A stretch of DNA of 64,000 nt from Beroe forskalii (taxonomy: Eukaryota; Ctenophora; Nuda; Beroida; Beroidae). The notes beneath the pieces are model-generated. The model worked only from the letters and a program-made list of their open reading frames with translations, made no database searches and was not told the origin of the DNA. How positions within the stretch are numbered: position 1 is the stretch's first letter; every line of letters starts with the position of its first letter. The stretch spans positions 353,467 to 417,466 of the forward strand of contig WFMF01000139.1 in assembly GCA_011033025.1 (NCBI GenBank), given 5' to 3'. Positions 3,801-15,571 of the stretch are shown here, piece by piece. A program made the translations under genes and the position numbers.

Positions 3801-6800
3801 GACAAGTTAGAGCTGCCTGCCAACGTACCCCTGGCTCTATACGAAGAGGTTCACGCCGGTCGGACTGACGAACTGACGCCCACCAAACACCTCAATGATG
3901 TACGTGTGTTATTTTAGATAGATCGTGTCAAAGTTGTCAAGTGGTTGTTGTGGCGTCTTTTTGGTGTTAGTTGATAACAGTCACGTATATCACATGAAGC
4001 CAGGTTTCAGTATGCCGTCATGATTGAGGGCTACAAATGCTACTCATGAGTTGGCATGATTCATTGTGTTACATTGATTTATTCAAATTGCTCATTTGGC
4101 AGCTGAGCACTAGCAGTTTCAGAGTGCCCCATAGGGTTCATTATTTGCTACTCGACACCCGTAGCCCCCCCCCTCATACCTCACCCTCTCCCCACAGATG
4201 GAAGAGGTATTTGACGGAGACATCTGGGTGATACAGCGCTCCGACAACACGGGCAAGTGTCACAACTCTGTGGACGAGTATTTCCGAGACCTAAACAACC
4301 GGATCACGGTACAGTTCTGTGACAAGAACAACCCCAACGACCCTGGGATCCAGGTTGTCCTCAACCAGAAGATGTCGTACAGTGAGGTGGCAAATGCTGT
4401 GGCAGACTACCTGGGGACCGAGCCGAACCTCCTTCAGTTCTTCAAACCTCAGAGGTAAGAACCTCCTTCACTTCTTCAAACCTCAGAGGTTAGAACCCTC
4501 CTCAGTTCTGCAAACCTCAGAGGTAAGAATATCCTTCAGTTCTTCAAAACTCAGAGGTAAAAACCTCCTTCAGTTCTTCAAACCTCAGAGGTAAGAACCT
4601 CCTTCAGTTCTTAAAGCCTCAGAGGTAAGAACCTCTTCAGTTCTTCAAACCTCAGAGGTTAGAACCCCCTTCAGTTCTCCAAACCTCAGAGGTAAGAACC
4701 CCCTTCAATTCTTCAAACCTCAGAGGTAAGAACCTCCTTCAGTTCTTCAATCCTCAGAGTTAAGAACCTCCTTCAGGTTTGAAGAGCGTTGTGGATTATT
4801 TTCATATGCAACCTTCTGTCGGTTTAATTCCCTTCCTTTCAGTCATCGTGATATAGCAGGATACGCTATCAAAAGTCACTTCGAAGGAACGCTGAAAGAT
4901 CTGTTTATGTCATACGGACAAAGAACCAAGTCTCCGAAGAAACTGTTTTATCTCAAGGTATCCTTATTTTATATAACCTCTAATGAAGAAAACATGTCGT
5001 TAGATATTTCAACTACGTTTATGAAATTTCTGGATAAAACCTTCCATGGGTACTGCGAATGATCGCAGAAAACCAAAGATCTTATTTCAGAGATGTCAGG
5101 CTTTTCTATACCTACTTACTTACCGCCCCATTTCAGCTGAACATAGCGATAGCAGAGTTGGAGAGCAAGGACCATTTCCGGTGTACGTGGCTCAACAAGC
5201 ACCGAGAGGAAACTGTGCTGTCCCTCTACGTGGCTAAAAACGTCACGATTGCAGAGCTTTTAGAGGAGGCTAAGAAACAGGTGGGTGTTTTATGAATTTA
5301 TACACAATAACACTTTTATTGCTACCAATCTTTTTCGGTCCTCCCAATTCCTTGTTGATACATTCACAAACTAGACAACTATCCCAACTATCATCGACAA
5401 ACGGACCTTTCCCACAGGTCCATTTGAAATCTACCAATCATCGTGCGAGTTGACCGTAAACTTGCGCGATGATTGGTCAATGTCCAGATCCCACGTGGGT
5501 AAACTTATACCTCCTCTCCCTCAGATCGAGCTGTCCCCTGACGGGAGTGGGACACTACGTCTCCTGGAGGTGTACAGCTACCGGATACACCGTGTTTTCT
5601 CCGACACGGTCAGCTACCACAACATCCAGCCCTCCATGGCTCAGCAGACCACCTGCTACCGCGTAGAGGTGGGGATGGAGGGGGTGTTGCACATTGTATG
5701 AGGGTGTACTCGGATTGATTAACATTTTAGGATCGATAACACCGCGTGCTTTGACTGTTCGCGCGTTTAGTTAATTTTGTTCATCCCAAATTAAATTGAT
5801 CCATGTTCGTTACCTTTTGCTTGTTAGCAATATTGCAGATTTTTTCATGTTTAGAACGTTATTGGTGTTTCCTATCACCTGTTATCGAATGGAGCATATG
5901 AAATTAAAGTTTTTATCTTGTTCTCAAACTATCGATTTAGCTGTTACTTCTTGAATCATTCTTCCAACGTAATCCTTGTTTTATTTCTCAGGAAATCCCT
6001 GTTGAGGATACCCAACTCGGAGCAAAAGATTTCCTTATTCCAGTCGCTCATTTCCATCAAACGATCTTCCAATGCTTCAACCATCCCTTCTTGTTCAAGT
6101 TAGTTCAACAACATGTTATTGCCTAGCCCTAATTATACCATGGATAAGCCCCTTGGGCCTTTAGTATTTCCCCAGTGGCTCATTCTTAATAAATGGATAT
6201 TATTGCCCTCGTTTTCATATCAACTTCATCGAATCCCTAATAGTCTGGTGACTTATTACATATCTGGTGCAAATTGTGATACCCTTTAATGACCGGTTGT
6301 AGGAGTTACTTTGGGCCAATTAAAATCGAAATTTGGCGTGATCCAAAAATTTTGCCAAATGGAACATGGTTTGGCGACCACGCCCATTTTGAGCGTGGGA
6401 AAATTCAAGAATCCCACTTGGAAAATTATTTATGGTCAATTATAGCATGATGGGTGTCTAAACTTATGTTTTTTGGGACGCTGAATCGATTCCAATGGTT
6501 TATTTTGGGTTTTGACCTTCACAGTAGGCTCTATTGACCACGCCCACTTTTAGCGTGGGAATTTTTAAGCGATCTTTCAATCTGGTAGTTTTGATGGATA
6601 ATATGTAATGTTGGGTGTCGACACCCATGTTTTTTGGGACGCTGAATCGATTGCGAGGGTTATTTTTGGTTTCTCTCACTCACAGAAGGCACTAGTGACC
6701 ATGCCCATTTTTAGCGTGGGAATTTTTCAGTGATTTTTCAATCTGGTAGTTTTGATGGATAATATGTAATGTTGGGTGTCGACACCCATGTTTTTTGGGA

Positions 6801-15571: not shown

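Follow-up and report, generated by a model that had tools for sequence, protein, structure and literature searches.

Academ elements encode a nuclease of the XPG type (the description cited below says only "nuclease"), and an eight-cysteine zinc finger occurs in Academ; the Academ/AcademX lineage was reportedly described by Kapitonov and Jurka in 2010 and by Kojima in 2020. The naming of Academ is dated to 2010 (cited in PMC4455052), and target-site duplications are given as 3 bp for Academ (PMC5199201), and as 3 or 4 bp for AcademX and 9 or 10 bp for AcademH, the lengths being linked to the encoded nuclease and helicase (PMC10045372); the bivalve Academ consensus elements have a mean length of 5,565 bp (PMC10294476).

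The 64-kb stretch of DNA analysed here (the window) holds an element that we regard, with a probability of about 0.8, as a cut-and-paste DNA transposon of autonomous type from the AcademX lineage of the Academ superfamily, a placement made by features and not by alignment to any Academ sequence. It most likely represents a family new to what was searched; present evidence does not make it an element of a new kind.

Ends, target sites and relatives of the element

The transposon occupies positions 6241-14967 of the window (8,727 bp) between TAA at 6238-6240 and TAA at 14968-14970, its limits being set by termini common to other copies and by a 3-bp duplication lying exactly there. Its outer left terminus, 5'-TAGTCTGGTGACTT... 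(6241-6266, plus strand), and its outer right terminus, 5'-TAGTCTAGTTACTT... (14934-14967, minus strand), the right one 8 nt longer than the left, lie outside the boundaries 6267 and 14933 of the preliminary description. A left-end search of the element's own genome (216 Mb, 1,134 contigs) gave at least 113 matches, with 40 of the 230 candidates scored, and ends were read from 24 extracted stretches holding such termini. TAGTCT stands at the 5' start of 39 of the 41 related ends read in this genome, the window's two included; in these, past GTGCAAAT, homology runs on, with small changes, to 5'-TAGTCTGGTGACTTAGTACAAAT and 5'-TAGTCTAGTNACTTAGTNCAAAATTTAGAAGG at opposite ends. The ends without TAGTCT are L022 and the right end of L012. 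Beyond TAGTCT the flanks seem unrelated, except that L031 and L032 have the same flanks and the two C313 loci lie within similar repeats.

Two of these loci deserve separate mention. L022 (C225:900845), whose outermost bases bear no relation to the terminus of the family, would be an end-truncated or recombined relic. In C313:13787-25458 (L023, L024) two right ends, at a distance of 3.1 kb from each other, come after a single left end, and the GGA flank matches the outer right end only, a sign of nesting or of partial duplication of an element.

For the target-site duplications, 16 paired loci were entered and 15 scored after L012 was dropped (its right end is missing), and the one-ended loci (L022, L025, L027-L032) were left unscored. 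Run as the preliminary description had proposed, this comparison of copies gave identical 3-bp flanks in 12 of the 15 scorable copies (shuffled right flanks: mean 1.6, maximum 8), and at the TAGTCT boundary duplications of 4 bp or more scored nothing. Boundaries shifted at both ends alike, from 3 bp outward to 29 bp inward, gave at most four matches at 3 bp. The three misses are L013 (TAA/TTT), L026 (AAA/TAA) and L023 (GGA/GAG, with GGA as the outer flank on its contig). The duplicated sequences include TAG, TGA, AAA, CTA and others, and so are not TWA alone. At boundaries of the 6267/14933 type, none of the 16 paired copies has direct repeats of 2-10 bp; because of this, and because related ends share letters farther out, up to TAGTCT, we reject the earlier boundaries, which were 26 and 34 bp too far in. 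The preliminary description had itself named boundaries falling elsewhere in other copies as evidence against it; they do fall elsewhere, which moves the coordinates, and the element itself stands as a mobile one with relatives that share its TAGTCT termini and 3-bp duplications.

Two other placements were tried and discarded. Duplications of TA with the ends at GTCT agree in 15 of 15 copies merely because the ends begin and finish with TA, and this leaves the 3 outer bases unexplained; a placement 15 bp inward gives a 2-bp match in 12 of 15, due to the conserved letters of the ends there.

A sister family, reached via the paralogue C274, has the termini 5'-TAGTTAGGGCAG and 5'-TAGTCAGATCAG. 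Seven pairs were read and C636, which misses its right end, was excluded; read by eye, exact 3-bp duplications are present in 4 of 6 (ATA, CAA, ATA, AAC), and in the copies C628 and C534 agreement of the 3-bp flanks requires AGGTCAG as the right terminus. The C492 copy (ATA) interrupts a frame that by eye resembles a LINE reverse transcriptase; the frame is open after excision of the element and one ATA and equally open with both ATA kept, so this is weak proof. Its empty site was found: the joined 160-nt flanks occur uninterrupted at 17 other places, the best of them 160/160 identical. For the window copy, a genome search for the empty site returned solely its own two flanks. As a side observation, the right ends of C628 and C534 (L113, L123) have in common the variant AGGTCAG replacing TAGTCAG, so terminal bases may tolerate change.

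Inside its outer termini the element carries the inverted ends and mirrored subterminal arrays noted in the preliminary description, and both held up. Two arms of 623 nt each (6267-6889 on the plus strand, 14311-14933 on the minus strand) are 93% complementary, with 598 of 657 aligned columns identical when the outer ends are included. Repeat detection gave a left array of three 161-bp units (D2; 6447-6929, plus strand) and a right mirrored array of three overlapping 189-nt copies with 161-bp spacing (D1; 14243-14753, minus strand). A pattern derived from the 161-bp units themselves, CACGCCCA-(5-7)-GCGTGGG, occurs seven times in the 64-kb window, always within the element (starts at 6379, 6539, 6700 and 6861 on the plus strand and at 14821, 14661 and 14339 on the minus strand), and in none of 200 shuffles of the element. 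Of the 14 other paired elements 9 have it and 5 lack it, and a looser form is found at the right end of the C274 type, whose similarity to the window end is weak (best E 2.7e-6). The transposase would most naturally bind at these mirrored repeats.

By tblastn at E <= 1e-4 no part of the gene is present in those 14 further paired elements (3.5-8.6 kb); as non-autonomous copies they have mainly their ends in common, and their inner parts fall into several groups, some of them 95-97% alike over 1.5-2.3 kb. Among the matches scored (26 of 121 candidates), only the window itself shows window-type coding sequence (86-99% identity), the next best being 39-43% identical. Broken paralogues are numerous (92 matches), and in C902 broken homologous coding sequence lies inside a second element with the duplication AAC. 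No relatives were found on viral contigs, and an Rfam search over 5500-15700 gave no matches. Two of the smaller elements hold foreign frames, as judged by eye: L015 (C280), which is non-autonomous with the duplication TAG, carries at element-local positions 644-2389 a 582-aa frame that resembles a LINE reverse transcriptase and would belong to a retroelement either nested or captured, and L018 holds a shorter retroelement-like frame.

These counts bear on whether the window copy still moves, a question of activity that stands beside the other readings. A decayed or silenced copy, with ends and gene still recognisable, is a possible but less likely reading, suggested by the single window-type coding copy found among the 26 of 121 candidates scored, by the 598 of 657 identical columns of the arms and by a dispersed repeat within intron 5. 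Against this, the 1,803 codons run without a stop and the duplication is intact, and the 95-97% likeness of the non-autonomous relatives means that ends of this type moved rather recently.

The gene and its predicted protein

The gene lies on the minus strand and has six exons and five introns, all GT/AG, with agreeing phases and no internal stop over 1,803 aa; the agreement of phases and the open frame were as first described, and the six donor/acceptor pairs and 1,794 aa given then are replaced by these numbers. The motifs named in the preliminary description do belong to this one long gene. The model is a consensus-splice choice among 864 open combinations. A spliced gene, together with the size of the genome, marks the host as a eukaryote. 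Exons 1 (13694-13843, ATG at 13843) and 2 (13328-13544), which cover residues 1 to about 122, are weakly supported, by splice signals and codon usage: their in-frame scores are 0.21 and 0.23 (trained on exons 5-6), next to 0.25 for one intron frame and 0.18 for the reverse strand of exon 2, and a homologue search of the genome for them found none (26 of 121 candidates scored). Exon 3 spans 12924-13186, and the alignment to the C274 paralogue begins in it at residue 172. Exon 4 (12161-12777) bears a CxxC ... HxxC set recognised by eye, a putative zinc finger that is present in the window protein and C274 and missing from the C536 frame that was read. The predicted transposase core is in exon 5 (9249-12004), and exon 6 (7368-8776) encodes the C-terminal part and the stop codon.

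The intronless C274 aligns in a single stretch over residues 172-1794 with 33% identity, and the C536 alignment breaks at residues 418/423 and 1335/1334, near the last two junctions; the last three exon junctions are thus supported by paralogues, the first of the three falling in a C274 stretch that carries one stop. Intron 5 contains a dispersed short repeat (8960-9088) with at least 41 genome matches, its relatives being 80-85% identical on many contigs (40 of 631 candidates scored).

Other frames of the window lie outside the element. A 272-aa open frame at 19356-20174 (minus strand) is a tandem repeat (DTVSQRTGTQCHS...), by eye a minisatellite rather than a gene, and the next frame, at 20396-20977, has the same repeat at its end. 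At 53496-54290 (minus strand) there is a host organic anion transporter (OATP) frame (Pfam PF03137, E 2.8e-54).

When the window protein is aligned to C274, C536 and L060, the invariant residues include D690, N691, D693, D930, H967, D1005, H1104, Y1105, R1107, D1151 and E1155, and we propose D690, D930 and E1155 as candidates for a DDE triad (span 9787-11184, minus strand). The profile search that the preliminary description had proposed gave no Pfam family for the window protein at E <= 1, and it reached a domain of unknown function, DUF6589 (PF20231), through paralogues. C274 is homologous to C441 (E 1e-13), residues 346-571 of which match DUF6589 with 28.5 bits against a curated cut-off of 27 bits, inside the stretch aligned to C274. 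Compared directly with C441 by BLAST, the window protein had no significant match (the best, at E 0.013, is out of register), and the link therefore goes via C274. In C703 a weaker DUF6589 match (E 0.016, below the cut-off) is located some 2 kb upstream of a frame for the nuclease of the window-gene family. We take DUF6589 to be the transposase domain of fungal Academ elements; a literature search on DUF6589 found no paper naming it.

Two deeper lineages were seen in the course of this search. C441:43300-46300 (L133) has the DUF6589 core and an XPG-like nuclease motif, the latter recognised by eye, in one frame, and in C703:494494-498127 such a core and such a motif are 2 kb apart.

The last exon encodes what we read as a FEN1/XPG-like nuclease domain (7944-8636, minus strand; D47 to D277 in P0002, the protein of exon 6), a reading that the pattern of active-site residues backs and significant similarity does not. 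Across six full-length lineages and in two separate alignments, the sole invariant acids are D47, D92, E190, D192, D216, D218 and D277; the five other lineages are 19-42% identical to the window protein, and row L129 starts at the first invariant acid. The partial rows C913 and C345 and both pieces of L052 were left out of this count; L052 agrees at all seven acids, the D47 column holds N in C913, and in C441 the E190 position seemingly is D, as judged by eye. The seven follow the order of the catalytic carboxylates of FEN1, and their spacing (45/98/2/24/2/59) can be set against 53/71-72/2/19/2/51-62 in archaeal FEN1, as measured on the 10 of 27 sequences that showed every motif (51 loci gave 47 with a frame and 27 of suitable length). 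Only 1 of 200,000 random seven-acid sets from the same domain passes a 40% tolerance, which was picked after the data had been seen, and at 30% the observed set fails too; for an earlier version with eight acids and four lineages, 3 of 200,000 random draws pass.

D92 is followed by K100 and R107; the K of FEN1 stands at +7 in 26 of 27 sequences and its R at +14 in 23 of 27. The two residues are invariant in the six full-length rows of one alignment and variable in the second, 2,485 of 200,000 random draws match equally, and the paralogue piece L052a lacks a lysine after its second aspartate.

Profile comparison for a PIN-type fold, a check proposed in the preliminary description, gave no significant match to FEN1. 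With hhalign against the 27 archaeal FEN1, the first profile scored 14.1, which 42 of 60 column shuffles reach, below 18.5 for reversed FEN1; with two lineages added the score was 21.4 (E 0.087), reached by 4 of 60 shuffles and again below reversed FEN1 (22.8). The second profile sets the GCD motif against the GTD of FEN1. The exon-6 protein, A1, A3 and L128 brought up no relevant sequence match in the PDB, and Pfam gave nothing credible on five A1 members, weak matches below the cut-off on L128 and L129 (e.g., NYN, E 0.014, in L129), and on L060 and L052 nothing except a CXC domain and a weak PerC match, both in L060.

A cysteine-rich, CXC-like region follows at the C-terminus (7398-7493, minus strand), with several cysteines invariant in A2 and A3; the same tail region in L060 matches Pfam TCR/CXC (Tesmin/TSO1 CXC) above the cut-off (E 1.3e-6).

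Proposed mechanism, placement and comparison with known elements

We propose that the protein would bind the mirrored subterminal repeats and pair the ends, its cysteine-rich and zinc-binding regions possibly contacting DNA. The RNase-H-type DDE domain (D690/D930/E1155) would then cut the ends and join them to the two target strands at points 3 bp apart, and the FEN1/XPG-like C-terminal domain may trim or cut the non-transferred strand or the flaps at the junctions. The smaller copies would move by protein supplied in trans, since they share the ends and lack the gene. For proteins that Pfam largely misses there is now a gene model, along with exact ends, the length of the duplication and an empty site; the Pfam domain of unknown function DUF6589 is tied to transposition, and there are testable residues for the role of a repair-type flap nuclease in a cut-and-paste transposase.

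We assign the element to AcademX because a candidate DDE-type core, a putative XPG-like nuclease, its inverted ends and its 3-bp duplications together agree with the published description, of which the 3-bp duplications and the terminal inverted repeats were found here directly. The "unnamed type" of the preliminary description is therefore probably wrong, the fit being one of features and not of alignment. A separate superfamily that works like AcademX (DDE-type core, nuclease, 3-bp duplications), with a core not closest to Academ, seems unlikely to us. In its favour, the window protein is without a Pfam match, its likeness to Academ is by description, and its nuclease link is a constellation of residues with no significant profile similarity; however, the core links to DUF6589, a domain of fungal Academ elements. 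The combination of features also fits what PMC10045372 says of AcademX.

Quite unlikely, too, is a DDE-plus-flap-nuclease superfamily distinct from Academ, of which DUF6589 would be the core and in which the FEN1-like domain would process the non-transferred strand; if it were true, DUF6589 would gain a function as a transposase core. That a host gene lies by chance between inverted repeats and is not the transposon's own is scarcely credible: introns are present and the coding part is low in copy number, but the 3-bp duplication bounds the unit containing the gene, homologous fragments lie inside the second element of C902 with its AAC duplication, and broken paralogues are many.

PIF/Harbinger elements make 3-bp duplications, as the element does here. 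Unlike them, its duplications are not TWA only and its nuclease-like domain lies within the same protein, in which Pfam gave no match to a Harbinger-type transposase at E <= 1. To FEN1/XPG proteins the last exon is alike in its seven acids in order and at near spacing and perhaps in a D-K-R motif, and unlike in showing no significant sequence or profile similarity and in having the C-terminal cysteine-rich region. With respect to PF20231 (DUF6589), the paralogue C441 is above the curated cut-off, and the window protein itself has no match at E <= 1. AcademH belongs by name to the same superfamily and has duplications of 9-10 bp and a helicase replacing the nuclease (PMC10045372); here the duplications are of 3 bp and no helicase match was obtained from Pfam at E <= 1. 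The element is 8.7 kb long against the mean of 5,565 bp given for the bivalve Academ consensus elements (PMC10294476). Compared by description, AcademX shares with it the inverted ends, the 3-bp duplications and, as predicted for the element, a DDE-type core with a nuclease-like domain in one protein, while the family in the window differs in its asymmetric outer termini, its long mirrored arrays of 161-bp units and its CXC-like C-terminus.
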